From Paucidesulfovibrio longus DSM 6739 (GTDB lineage: Bacteria > Desulfobacterota > Desulfovibrionia > Desulfovibrionales > Desulfovibrionaceae), in NCBI RefSeq assembly GCF_000420485.1, contig NZ_ATVA01000011.1, positions 248,001 through 312,000 of the forward strand: a DNA stretch of 64,000 nucleotides, written 5' to 3'. Of the stretch, positions 43,650-49,622 are shown in pieces (position 1 is the first letter of the stretch; every line of letters starts with the position of its first letter). The notes under the pieces were generated by a model that had not been told where the DNA came from, did not search any database, and saw only the letters and a list, made by a program, of their open reading frames with translations. The position numbers and the translations under genes were made by a program.

Positions 43650-43827
43650 TACTCTTTCCTTGTTGAAGTGGGGTGAAAGGGTATCCAACAGTAGAGTTCC
43701 GAATAATTCATGAATGAGTTTGCGGTCAAGAGCAGAGAGCACCGTGGCGTCTGCTTCATGCGGGCAAATCCGTGCAGAAGGCTTGCTTTTGCTTGACGCT
43801 GCAACCGCGCTGATGTAAACGGTGTTC

Positions 43828-43917
43828 ATGAAGACCACTCAGCTAGGCCACAACTTCTTTTCTTTTTTCTTCTTTTTTATCTTTACCCTCGCCTGTGGCC
43901 TGGAGGGGACTGTCTAG
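43828..43917 (+). CDS. Phenylalanine-rich leader peptide of a transcription attenuator
   Basis: A 29-codon open frame, ATG to TAG, with eight Phe codons between positions 43855 and 43884: residues 10-19 read FFSFFFFFIF. This is the hallmark of a ribosome-stalling leader such as E. coli PheL. The stop lies 22 nt before the terminator hairpin, and codons 21-26 overlap the antiterminator's left arm. There is no obvious Shine-Dalgarno site. A TTGACG (43793-43798)/TAAACG (43816-43821) promoter with 17-bp spacing would put the start of transcription at or next to the ATG, so the leader may be read from a leaderless RNA; that promoter is weak on the -10 side. Confidence 0.9.
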   Translation: MKTTQLGHNFFSFFFFFIFTLACGLEGTV

Positions 43918-43980
43918 CTGCATCCAAAGACAAGACCAAAACCGGGCCGCAGGCGAAAGCTGGCGGCCCGGTTCTTTTTT
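43889..43980 (+). promoter_or_regulatory. Phe attenuator: mutually exclusive antiterminator and terminator hairpins
   Basis: Antiterminator: 43889-43903 pairs without a break with 43942-43956 (15 bp, two of them G-U). Terminator: 43940-43950 (AACCGGGCCGC) pairs with 43963-43973 (GCGGCCCGGTT), continues through a few more pairs to a GAAA tetraloop, and is followed by C and six T's. The two structures share 43942-43950, so only one can form. A ribosome stalled on the Phe codons leaves 43889-43903 free and favours read-through; a ribosome reaching the stop at 43915 covers it and allows termination. Pairing is read directly from sequence. Confidence 0.9.
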
Positions 43981-44025
43981 GTCCGCCAGCCGTAGCCAGG
44001 GGCCTCCAAAACCGGAGGAGAGGTT

Positions 44026-44220
44026 ATGATGTTGGGACTCGGGAGCGCGGAGATCGCACTGGCCTTCTGGCTGGTGATCGCAAGCGCGCTGTTGTGCATC
44101 GGCTACGGCGTGGCGAAATGGAATTCCGGAGGGCAGGAGGACGCGGTGGACCCGGAGCGGGAGGAAGCGCAGGCCGCAGGGGCCGCTGTTTCCAGAACCG
44201 CTGAGGAGGCCGCGAAATGA
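44026..44220 (+). CDS. Symporter small accessory protein
   Basis: A 64-residue protein with one membrane helix: LGLGSAEIALAFWLVIASALLCIGYGVAKWN, then a charged, Ala/Glu-rich cytoplasmic tail. The pattern (LGxxxxxLAxxLxxxSxLLCxxYGxxxWN) is that of the small accessory proteins encoded directly before SSS-family symporters. ATG at 44026 or 44029 follows GGAGGAGAGG. Its stop overlaps the symporter start (ATGA), so the two are made together. It is the first full gene after the Phe attenuator. Confidence 0.85.
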   Translation: MMLGLGSAEIALAFWLVIASALLCIGYGVAKWNSGGQEDAVDPEREEAQAAGAAVSRTAEEAAK

Positions 44221-45815
44221 TTTCCAAAATCATCGTCAGCGTACTCTATTTCGCAGTAGTCTTCTACCTCGGCTACAAAGGCTGGCAGAACACCCGCAAG
44301 GCATCGGACTACATGCTGGCGGGCCGCAGGATGAACCCCTTTGTCATGGCCATGAGCTACGGGGCCACGTTCATCTCCACCTCGGCCATCATCGGTTTCG
44401 GTGGAGCCGCCGGACTCTTCGGCTTTTCCCTGCTCTGGCTCACCGTGGCCAACGTCTTCATCGGCATCTTCCTGGCCATGACCGTATTCGGCCGCCGCAC
44501 GCGGCGCATGGGCCTTTGCCTCAACTGCCACACCTTCCCGGAGCTGCTCGGCAGGCGTTTCGACTCCTCGTTCATCCAGGGCTTTTCCGGCCTGATCATC
44601 TTCCTGTTCATCCCGGTCTACGCGGCAGCGGTGCTCATCGGCATTTCGCGCATGCTCGAAGTCTCGCTGAACATCCCCTATGACTGGGCTCTCATCGGCA
44701 TGACCGCGATTCTCGCCGTCTACGTGGTCACGGGCGGGCTCAAGGCCGTGATGTACACGGACGCCTTCCAGGGCGGGATCATGATGGTCATGATGATCAT
44801 CCTGCTTTACTACACCTATTCCGCCCTGGGCGGGGTGACCAGCGCGCACCAGACGCTCACGGACATGGCCGCCATGATGCCGGAGAAGCTCCAGAAGGGC
44901 GGCATGCTCGGCTGGACCCAGGGCGCCAAGTTCGGGACGCCGCTCTGGCTGGTCATCTACACGACCATCATCTACGGAGTGGGCATCGGCGTGCTGGCCC
45001 AGCCGCAGCTGGCCGTGCGCTTCATGACCGTCAAGAGCGACAAGCAGCTCAACCGGGCCGTGCTCTTCGGCGGCATCTTCATTCCGTTGATGACCGGGGT
45101 GGCCTTCATCGTGGGCGCGCTTTCCAACGCGGTGTTCACCGCGCGCGGCGGAAAGATCGCCATTGCCCAGGCCGGGGGCAACATCGACAAGATCATTCCC
45201 ACCTACATCGAACAGGTCATGCCGGACTGGTTCGCCGGATTGTTCCTGCTCGGCATGTTCGCGGCGGCCATGTCCACGCTCAGCTCGCAGTACCATGTCG
45301 GCGGCACCTCCCTGGGCCGCGACGTGATCGAGCGCGGGCTGTTCAAGCGCGTGGGCACCTCGGCCAAGGCCTCGCAGATCGGCGTGACCGTGACCATCCT
45401 GGCCACCCTGGTCTGGGCCTGGGTCTTGCCGGAATCGATCATCGCCCGCGCCACGGCCTTCTTCTTCGGCCTGTGCGCGGCCTCGTTCCTGCCCGTTTAC
45501 CTGCTCGGCCTCTACTGGAAGGGCATCACCAAGGTGGCGGCCAAGGTTTCCATGGTCGGCGGATTCGCGGGGTCCATGCTCTGGCTCCTGTTCGTGCACG
45601 AAAAGGAAGCGGCCGGTCTGGGGATCTGTCAGTGGCTCACGGGTCAGCCCACTCTCGTCTCCGCGGCGACCAAGGGCTCCTGGGTTTGGCTTCTGCAATG
45701 GGTCGATCCCAACGTGGTGGCCCTGCCGATCAGCTTCCTGCTGGCCGTGGGCGTGAGCCTGATGACCAAGCCCATGCGCCAGGAGCACCTGGAGCAGTGC
45801 TGGGCCAACTTCTAG
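44217..45815 (+). CDS. Sodium:solute symporter (SSS family), probably controlled by phenylalanine supply
   Basis: A 532-residue inner-membrane protein with about 13 hydrophobic helices, the LeuT-like SSS fold. Family signatures: the N-terminal KASDYMLAGRRMNPFVMAMSYGATFISTSAIIGFGG, GGLKAVMYTDAFQGGIMM and the Na2-site helix GMFAAAMSTLSSQYHVGG with its Ser/Thr residues. SSS substrates range from sugars and proline to monocarboxylates, so sequence alone does not fix it. The upstream Phe attenuator indicates expression when charged tRNA-Phe is short, pointing to phenylalanine or a closely related aromatic compound as substrate (inference). Confidence 0.9.
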   Translation: MISKIIVSVLYFAVVFYLGYKGWQNTRKASDYMLAGRRMNPFVMAMSYGATFISTSAIIGFGGAAGLFGFSLLWLTVANVFIGIFLAMTVFGRRTRRMGLCLNCHTFPELLGRRFDSSFIQGFSGLIIFLFIPVYAAAVLIGISRMLEVSLNIPYDWALIGMTAILAVYVVTGGLKAVMYTDAFQGGIMMVMMIILLYYTYSALGGVTSAHQTLTDMAAMMPEKLQKGGMLGWTQGAKFGTPLWLVIYTTIIYGVGIGVLAQPQLAVRFMTVKSDKQLNRAVLFGGIFIPLMTGVAFIVGALSNAVFTARGGKIAIAQAGGNIDKIIPTYIEQVMPDWFAGLFLLGMFAAAMSTLSSQYHVGGTSLGRDVIERGLFKRVGTSAKASQIGVTVTILATLVWAWVLPESIIARATAFFFGLCAASFLPVYLLGLYWKGITKVAAKVSMVGGFAGSMLWLLFVHEKEAAGLGICQWLTGQPTLVSAATKGSWVWLLQWVDPNVVALPISFLLAVGVSLMTKPMRQEHLEQCWANF

Positions 45816-47697: not shown

Positions 47698-47773
47698 GCT
47701 GGCGTAGCTCAATTGGTAGAGCAGCTGATTTGTAATCAGCCGGTTGCGGGTTCAAGTCCCATCGCCAGCTCCA
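47698..47773 (+). tRNA. tRNA-Thr (anticodon TGT)
   Basis: 76 nt with acceptor GCTGGCG / CGCCAGC, anticodon loop TTTGTAA (TGT), T loop GGTTCAAGTCC and an encoded CCA end. First of four tRNAs upstream of tuf. Confidence 0.96.
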
Positions 47774-47785
47774 GTCAGCGCATTT

Positions 47786-47871
47786 GGTGGGGTTCCCGAG
47801 TGGCCAAAGGGAACAGACTGTAAATCTGTCGGCGAACGCCTTCGGAGGTTCAAATCCTCCCCCCACCACCA
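47786..47871 (+). tRNA. tRNA-Tyr (anticodon GTA)
   Basis: 86 nt with a long variable arm (class II), acceptor GGTGGGG / CCCCACC, anticodon loop CTGTAAA (GTA) and an encoded CCA. Confidence 0.96.
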
Positions 47872-47926
47872 CTTTGAAATGAAATGCTGTAGGAGGCGGT
47901 AATCCGCCGGTGACTACGGATAATGA

Positions 47927-48003
47927 GCGGGAATAGCTCAATTGGCTAGAGCATCAGCCTTCCAAGCTGAGGGTTGCGGGTTCGAGTCCCGTTTCCCGCT
48001 CCA
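47927..48003 (+). tRNA. tRNA-Gly (anticodon TCC)
   Basis: 77 nt with acceptor GCGGGAA / TTCCCGC, anticodon loop CTTCCAA (TCC), T arm GGGTTCGAGTCCC and an encoded CCA. Confidence 0.96.
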
Positions 48004-48044
48004 GCCGTTATCCAGCCGATTCACCTCCTTTCAGTATTGCCAAA

Positions 48045-48120
48045 GCCCACGTAGCTCAGTAGGTAGAGCACATCCTTGGTAAGGATGAGGTCACCGGTTC
48101 AAATCCGGTCGTGGGCTCCA
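48045..48120 (+). tRNA. tRNA-Thr (anticodon GGT)
   Basis: 76 nt with acceptor GCCCACG / CGTGGGC, anticodon loop TTGGTAA (GGT), T arm CGGTTCAAATCCG and an encoded CCA. It ends 68 bp before tuf. Confidence 0.96.
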
Positions 48121-48188
48121 CTGGTATTTTAGATAATTGAATTTAACCATTAAAATTGCTGAACAGAACTTTATAGGGGGATTCCAAC

Positions 48189-49382
<1,194 letters not shown>

Positions 49383-49385
49383 GAC

Positions 49386-49535
49386 ATGCGCGTCAACATC
49401 CAGTTGCAGTGCACGGAGTGCAAGCGTAAGAACTACGCTACCTCCAAGAACAAGAAGAATACTACTGGACGCCTGGAAGTGAAGAAGTATTGTCCCTGGG
49501 ACAAGAAACACACGGTCCACAAAGAGTCCAAGTAG
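49386..49535 (+). CDS. rpmG: 50S ribosomal protein L33
   Basis: A 49-residue protein beginning [23 protein letters not shown]... and ending [10 protein letters not shown]. It contains the zinc-type pairs CTEC (Cys9/Cys12) and a single downstream Cys36 followed by PWDKK, so the second half of the zinc knuckle is incomplete. It starts 3 bp after tuf and is followed by tRNA-Trp after 10 bp. Confidence 0.93.
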
Positions 49536-49545
49536 TTTCGAACGC

Positions 49546-49622
49546 AGGGGTGTAACTCTAACGGCTAGAGTGCCGGTCTCCAAAACCGGAAGTTGGGGGT
49601 TCGAATCCCTCCACCCCTGCCA
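49546..49622 (+). tRNA. tRNA-Trp (anticodon CCA)
   Basis: 77 nt with acceptor AGGGGTG / CACCCCT, anticodon loop CTCCAAA (CCA), T arm GGGGTTCGAATCCCT and an encoded CCA. It lies between rpmG and secE inside the operon, so it must be cut out of the polycistronic RNA. Confidence 0.96.

Follow-up and report, generated by a model that had tools for sequence, protein, structure and literature searches.

Predicted phenylalanine attenuator upstream of a symporter operon

The question raised by this locus is why a short open reading frame (ORF) crowded with phenylalanine codons should precede the gene of a membrane transporter, and what that transporter carries. The window, a stretch of 64,000 nucleotides (nt) from Paucidesulfovibrio longus DSM 6739 (contig NZ_ATVA01000011.1, positions 248,001 to 312,000 of the forward strand), contains such an ORF followed by overlapping hairpins, a small accessory gene and a gene of the sodium/solute symporter (SSS) family. 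The original prediction, made from the letters of the DNA, read the arrangement as an attenuator of the pheL type, in which a run of Phe codons governs the choice between alternative antiterminator and terminator hairpins. The reading favored here, with a probability of about 0.78, is that the element is a ribosome-mediated attenuator of this kind and that the symporter imports L-phenylalanine, perhaps with other aromatics, together with Na+, while a sister copy behind a Tyr-codon leader imports tyrosine. The features of the locus, in window positions, are as follows.

43793-43798, + strand: -35 box TTGACG, beginning 35 nt 5' of the leader ATG
43816-43821, + strand: -10 box TAAACG, beginning 12 nt 5' of the leader ATG, with a spacer of 17 nt
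43828-43917, + strand: Phe leader peptide MKTTQLGHNFFSFFFFFIFTLACGLEGTV plus stop, 29 codons with 8 Phe
43843-43852, + strand: arm 1, pairing with 43894-43903 as a protector hairpin in the minimum free energy fold
43889-43903, + strand: arm 2, 5' side of the antiterminator, within the leader ORF
43942-43956, + strand: arm 3, shared by the antiterminator (as its 3' side) and the terminator (as its 5' part)
43940-43980, + strand: intrinsic terminator, consisting of a hairpin (43940-43973), C and six T (43975-43980)
44014-44023, + strand: Shine-Dalgarno-like GGAGGAGAGG before the accessory gene, read directly
44026-44220, + strand: symporter small accessory protein, 64 amino acids (NF045580; 46.5 bits, cut-off 35)
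44217-45815, + strand: SSS protein, 532 amino acids (PF00474, TIGR00813)

Each structural element of the original prediction was recovered. The leader has the 29 codons and eight Phe codons ascribed to it, the antiterminator gives the 15 pairs claimed (two of them G-U), and the overlapping terminator with its six T's is present with a C before the T run. The accessory gene begins 45 nt past that run, and the matches to NF045580 and PF00474 bear out both the identity of the two genes and the assignment of transport as the target. The minimum free energy fold revealed in addition the hairpin of arms 1 and 2, absent from the original prediction, with 10 bp bracketing the Phe codons. The fold energy was -54.8 compared with -42.1 (standard deviation 3.8) in 200 shuffles, none of which was as good (z = -3.33). 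An Rfam scan of the window at gathering score returned five tRNAs only and thus the locus is not a described riboswitch or T-box.

In the mechanism proposed, transcription would begin at the leader ATG or immediately beside it, and the leader would be translated by a ribosome. With Phe-tRNA in short supply this ribosome is expected to stall at the Phe codons, 5' of arm 2, leaving arm 2 free to pair with arm 3, so that no terminator forms and RNA polymerase continues into the accessory and symporter genes. With ample Phe-tRNA it would instead reach the stop and cover arm 2, and arms 3 and 4 would form the terminator. Transcription attenuation in response to charged tRNA-Phe is judged very probable from the features described below.

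Leader peptide and promoter

Phenylalanine accounts for 3.55% of residues in six-frame ORFs of at least 300 amino acids in the window, some of which may be non-genes, and from this background the chance of at least 8 Phe in 28 residues is ~4e-6. A pattern of five Phe codons matched eight times in the genome and ten times in a reversed control, thus the codon run alone is not rare; only the match at the symporter locus proved to be a leader, and the pattern missed the leader of 2-amino-3,7-dideoxy-D-threo-hept-6-ulosonate (ADH) synthase described below, which has runs of three and four Phe. An ORF with five aromatics in nine residues at leader distance arose in 22 of 1240 dinucleotide shuffles, and one accompanied by a TTGAC box at the right distance in none of the 1240.

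The positions of the promoter boxes place the predicted transcript start at the A of the leader ATG. Among the 57 aligned leaders, TTGAC starts 35-38 nt 5' of the ATG in 56 and a TA dinucleotide lies 10-14 nt 5' of it in all 57, while just five have a Shine-Dalgarno-like motif. Since the boxes are fixed relative to the ATG and Shine-Dalgarno motifs are rare, the leader mRNA is probably leaderless and translated from an ATG at its 5' end.

Conservation and covariation of the leader

The symporter was found in 70 of 297 genomes sampled from the order (E ≤1e-60), and the upstream region was examined for at least one copy in each. A Phe-rich leader precedes it in 58 of the 70, in line with the conservation of Phe codons that the original prediction had proposed to check; 11 have none and in one (G282) the region is cut by a contig end. 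The 58th leader genome, G076, had its leader read at L204, a truncated first symporter having been dropped; its tandem second copy (L031) is without a leader. The second copy in G170 has its own Phe leader, and a partial second copy was observed in G047. Family f2 of the same order also has leaders (G012, G027), thus the feature is wider than one family, and the leader of G012 mixes four Phe with five Tyr codons.

Alignment of the leaders (A1; 57 rows, 56 distinct) revealed standard pairs in 88.7% of terminator positions, with nine pairs changed on both sides. Cells changed on both sides numbered 55 compared with 16.1 in shuffles (0 of 500 as high) and 2-20 when the terminator was slid out of register, and helix 2, that of the terminator, was 93.8% paired over the 56 distinct rows. 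The antiterminator had 81.9% standard pairs (80.1 in shuffles) and 22 cells changed on both sides (11.9 in shuffles; 0 of 500 as high), and its core helix was 88.0% paired. Its variation is limited because arm 3 is shared with the terminator. These results answer the call in the original prediction for covariation of both hairpins strongly for the terminator and only moderately for the antiterminator. The geometry expected of stalling and release is also conserved. The last control codon ends 1-13 nt 5' of the arm 2 core at 57 of 57 loci, and the leader stop lies 11-25 nt 3' of that core at 56 of 57. The pheL-type logic of the original prediction is borne out and is conserved across these loci, with covariation.

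Related attenuators upstream of aromatic pathway genes

A covariance model (R1) extending from arm 2 to the T run, and built without the Tyr leaders, gave three strong matches in the P. longus genome (73.6, 58.8 and 51.7 bits), the next scoring 32.2. The 73.6-bit match is the symporter leader. The other two, both outside the window, are as follows.

L142, ~1450-1635 (G000:C15, ~19.7-19.8 kb): Phe attenuator before a stand-alone ADH synthase, 58.8 bits
L121, 3102-3305 (G000:C11, ~65.1-65.3 kb): attenuator with Phe, Tyr and Trp codons, 51.7 bits

ADH synthase catalyzes the first step of an alternative aromatic pathway. The leader of the stand-alone gene is MNTRIRNAFFFSFFFFRCACGLGVSL, with seven Phe codons, and the enzyme is apparently a Phe-type isozyme of this first step. 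The 51.7-bit attenuator, with leader MNSLRDLGVFASFYFWYWFSRVCGHGRGTA, precedes genes encoding ADH synthase, dehydroquinate synthase II and pheA (PDT domain). All three leaders have TTGAC 35-36 nt 5' of the ATG. At E ≤10 the model gave 27 matches in this genome, of which the symporter leader and 11 others were examined, the remaining 15 scoring at most 24 bits. Nine matches of 32.2 bits or less were rejected by eye as ordinary terminators or chance, two of them adjoining a tRNA or a seeming remnant; the 32.2-bit match looks like an ordinary terminator and adjoins a tRNA.

With a threshold of 1e-6, at least one match was found in 60 of 79 family genomes, 85 matches in total, and the targets of the 84 examined are all a symporter operon, an ADH synthase or a trpE-type gene; the 85th (G147) is the symporter leader of L013. 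The 84 comprise 13 before the symporter operon, 50 before ADH synthase with dehydroquinate synthase, two before a trpE-type gene (405 bits to TIGR00564, below the cut-off of 517.7) and 19 before ADH synthase alone, where the stretch was often ~1.5 kb and dehydroquinate synthase may lie further on. The control codons follow the target. The symporter leaders are Phe leaders in 11 cases (in four of these Trp occurs, but solely past the run) and Tyr leaders in two. Before ADH synthase with dehydroquinate synthase, 44 leaders have Trp besides Phe and Tyr, five have Phe and Tyr only, and for one no leader was found. The leaders of the 19 are Phe only in eight, Phe/Tyr in four and with Trp in seven, and both trpE-type leaders (L231, L240) have a Trp pair. 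One match (L244) had no credible peptide, and another (L186) lies at a contig end with a partial ADH synthase. Two leaders before ADH synthase were observed to be mainly Tyr, PYYYGYS at L233 (counted as Phe/Tyr) and YAYYYYY at L242 (with one Trp outside the run), the enzymes being apparent Tyr-type isozymes.

These results suggest, on balance, that the Desulfovibrionaceae use one attenuator type in which the leader codons are swapped according to the target. Phe codons would serve the symporter and the Phe-type ADH synthase, Tyr codons a second, duplicated symporter and a small number of ADH synthases, Phe with Tyr and Trp the common aromatic operon, and Trp codons trpE. The symporters would then be a branch of the SSS family that imports aromatic amino acids, one not encountered in the papers searched. 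Such a set would represent one attenuator design re-coded and shared between the operons of a pathway, with transport added to aromatic amino acid control in bacteria using the ADH synthase route.

A search with R1 of 198 genomes of the phylum (E ≤1e-5) gave matches in 17 genomes, of which ten lie outside the order; gene names at the latter were assigned by eye. Trp leaders with codons of the WW/WRW type were observed before trpE-type genes (L254, L256) and a Phe/Tyr leader before ADH synthase (L251). A Leu-rich leader-like ORF precedes a gene resembling isopropylmalate synthase (L258 in G362; leuA-like by eye), and an Ala-run leader-like ORF with a terminator scored 36.5 bits (L260 in G317) and may be chance. 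The matches at L255, L257, L259 and L261 were set aside as likely chance.

The symporter and its Tyr-led sister

The stop of the accessory gene overlaps the start of the symporter gene (ATGA at 44217-44220). The symporter scored 190.5 bits with PF00474 (cut-off 22.8) and 198 with TIGR00813 (cut-off 184). Identity as PutP or PanF was rejected, the scores of 180.1 and 171.3 bits falling below the cut-offs of 515.5 and 328.05, and the monocarboxylate and acetate models MctC and ActP gave 56 and 49 bits. The structure model had a mean pLDDT (predicted local distance difference test) of 86.9 and its top fold matches were SGLT and SiaT, with SMCT1 also among the matches. In a profile alignment, S353-T354 of the symporter align with S364-S365 of vSGLT, which belong to the Na2 site, and for this reason coupling to Na+ is plausible.

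Six genomes of one genus (L042, L043, L044, L045, L049 and L052) contain tandem symporters each with its own leader, one like MNKLTTIIFFAFFGFRG... and the other like MNTINRHMNSYFYAYYGYRV..., the latter with five Tyr and one Phe. In G128 and G130, the two of these genomes covered by the family search, each copy comes with an accessory gene and an R1 match, and their Tyr leaders scored 63 and 59 bits although absent from the R1 build. The Tyr-led copies form one clade (support 98) and most likely import tyrosine. At residue 297 all 57 Phe-led proteins have Phe and all 6 Tyr-led proteins have Tyr; this position was picked from 31 columns separating the two sister sets and is the only one of them invariant across both the 57 Phe-led and the 6 Tyr-led rows. 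Since the Tyr copies form one clade the switch counts as one event, and among rows lacking a leader the position is Phe in 9 and Tyr in 8. The profile alignment puts it eight residues past the position of vSGLT residue 294, a lysine that binds sugar and is mutated in 2xq2. Residue 297 is placed on the transmembrane helix carrying the substrate lysine of sugar symporters, and may mark specificity for Phe or Tyr. The Phe-led and Tyr-led pairs offer a natural comparison for locating specificity residues, and leader codons that name the sensed amino acid provide an independent clue in a family whose substrates are hard to predict.

Evaluation of the attenuator and of alternative explanations

Several observations weigh against this interpretation. 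The hairpin of arms 1 and 2 stands 1 standard deviation below shuffles at only 24 of 57 loci. The outer antiterminator pairs are often broken (helix 1 is 42.9% paired), the covariation score of the antiterminator was equalled by 52 of 500 shuffles, its count of pair types was equalled by 262, and sliding it by -1 gave 37 cells changed on both sides, at 36.7% paired. The family gives no substrate since the nearest models, PutP and PanF, are far below cut-off. One R1 match outside the order (L249, 1501-1599, in G338; 60.5 bits) precedes a putative permease without a clear control-codon run, and such matches to non-aromatic or unclear loci show that, beyond the family, these arms are not exclusive to aromatic operons. 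Symporters that lack the Phe run, the case that the original prediction had named as contrary to it, occur in 11 of the 70 genomes of the order (G006, G047, G082, G138, G148, G190, G217, G218, G227, G236 and G251), in the second copies of G245 and G289, and outside the order, where none of the 29 symporter loci examined (of 35 matches) has an aromatic leader passing the strict detector. At two of these, L092 and L099, an ORF with five aromatics in nine residues lies upstream and failed that detector. The existence of orthologues without a leader indicates that the function of the symporter does not need this control.

Eight of the 11 genomes of the order without the leader were covered by the RNA model search, and each of them has the attenuator in front of ADH synthase, indicating that only the symporter locus lacks it. 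In a symporter tree of 108 rows the Phe label requires three changes (shuffled mean 36.2) and the Tyr label one; it is a quick tree with weak forks and long branches. Rows dropped were L003 (the L014 locus), L079 (contig end) and L104, and the distant L009-L012 were omitted from the tree. Nine of the 11 genomes without the leader fall outside the fork holding the Phe rows and two inside, results that fit one or a few gains of the Phe leader, with losses also possible as the support of that fork is only 88.

That leader and hairpins are a relic or a chance arrangement with no regulatory role is very improbable in view of their presence in 58 of 70 genomes, the covariation, the fixed geometry of promoter and stop, and the absence of a comparable ORF and TTGAC box from the shuffles. 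The regulation could also be genuine and the substrate not aromatic, the leader having been copied from an aromatic operon so that Phe supply controls uptake of some other compound, for instance a different amino acid or an acid drawn on while protein synthesis is restricted. The close resemblance of the arms to those of ADH synthase suggests that the element may move between operons, and the 29 loci outside the order without it agree with such an origin; however, a non-aromatic substrate accounts poorly for retention with covariation through deep divergence and for the switch to Tyr codons at a duplicated symporter, and the explanation is considered improbable. An aromatic substrate, as the original prediction proposed, is instead highly likely, supported by an attenuator class held in common with aromatic biosynthesis genes and by the Tyr-led sister copies.

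Somewhat less remote, and still unlikely, is that the attenuator acts as described and the symporter imports an aromatic precursor such as phenylacetate or phenylpyruvate, or in the case of the Tyr-led copy a hydroxylated form; the precursor would then be converted to Phe or Tyr through reductive carboxylation and transamination. Both monocarboxylate and phenylacetate permeases are known in the SSS family, the fold matches include SMCT1, and the pair of Phe and Tyr leaders fits phenylacetate and 4-hydroxyphenylacetate equally well. The protein is nevertheless nearer to PutP and PanF (180 and 171 bits) than to MctC and ActP (56 and 49 bits), and the operon has two genes and no enzyme gene; a search for enzymes of the route elsewhere in the genome was not made. 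Phenylalanine itself, rather than phenylacetate or phenylpyruvate, is regarded as the probable substrate of the Phe-led symporter.

Comparison with known attenuators

The comparison drew on passages of papers including PMC2965389, PMC9413887, PMC7298713, PMC11802643, PMC1262725 and PMC1173090. Attenuation of E. coli pheL and pheST responds to charged tRNA-Phe (PMC11802643), and pheL-pheA and pheST resemble the present locus in the short ORF with a Phe run, the alternative antiterminator and terminator, and the signal. The locus differs in that the target is an SSS operon and not a biosynthetic or synthetase operon, in the predicted leaderless mRNA, and in arms common to other aromatic operons of the genome. 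For the Desulfovibrio vulgaris supraoperon aroA'-aroB'-pheA-aroF-tyrA-trp an attenuator was predicted upstream (PMC1173090, Table 7). The operon is of the type found here behind the leader with Phe, Tyr and Trp codons, and the source passages give no leader peptide or codons and no attenuator of a transporter. The AroR leader of Corynebacterium glutamicum, with Phe-Tyr-Phe, precedes aroF and Tyr supply is without effect (PMC11802643); like the Phe leader of ADH synthase it controls a first aromatic step, in another phylum, with another enzyme and no transporter. A precedent for leaderless leader-peptide mRNA is trpL of Sinorhizobium meliloti, the transcript of which begins with the ATG of the leader ORF (PMC7298713), although regulation there is by Trp and the target biosynthetic. 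Candidate His attenuators have been proposed before the his operon and/or the hisZ*YX transporter (PMC9413887), likewise leader-peptide attenuation of an amino acid transporter, there for histidine, an ABC transporter and Gram-positive lineages.

No Phe or Tyr attenuator before an SSS gene, no codon-swapped set and no attenuator with a Tyr-only leader peptide was found in the literature searched, which mostly excluded subscription papers. The mechanism is thus classical and attenuators before amino acid transporters have already been proposed; what appears to be new is the SSS target and the codon-swapped set.

The region downstream of the symporter contains the five tRNA genes at window positions 47698-49622 (Thr, Tyr, Gly, Thr and Trp), ~2-4 kb from the symporter gene. 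Two of the five are for aromatic amino acids, probably by chance.

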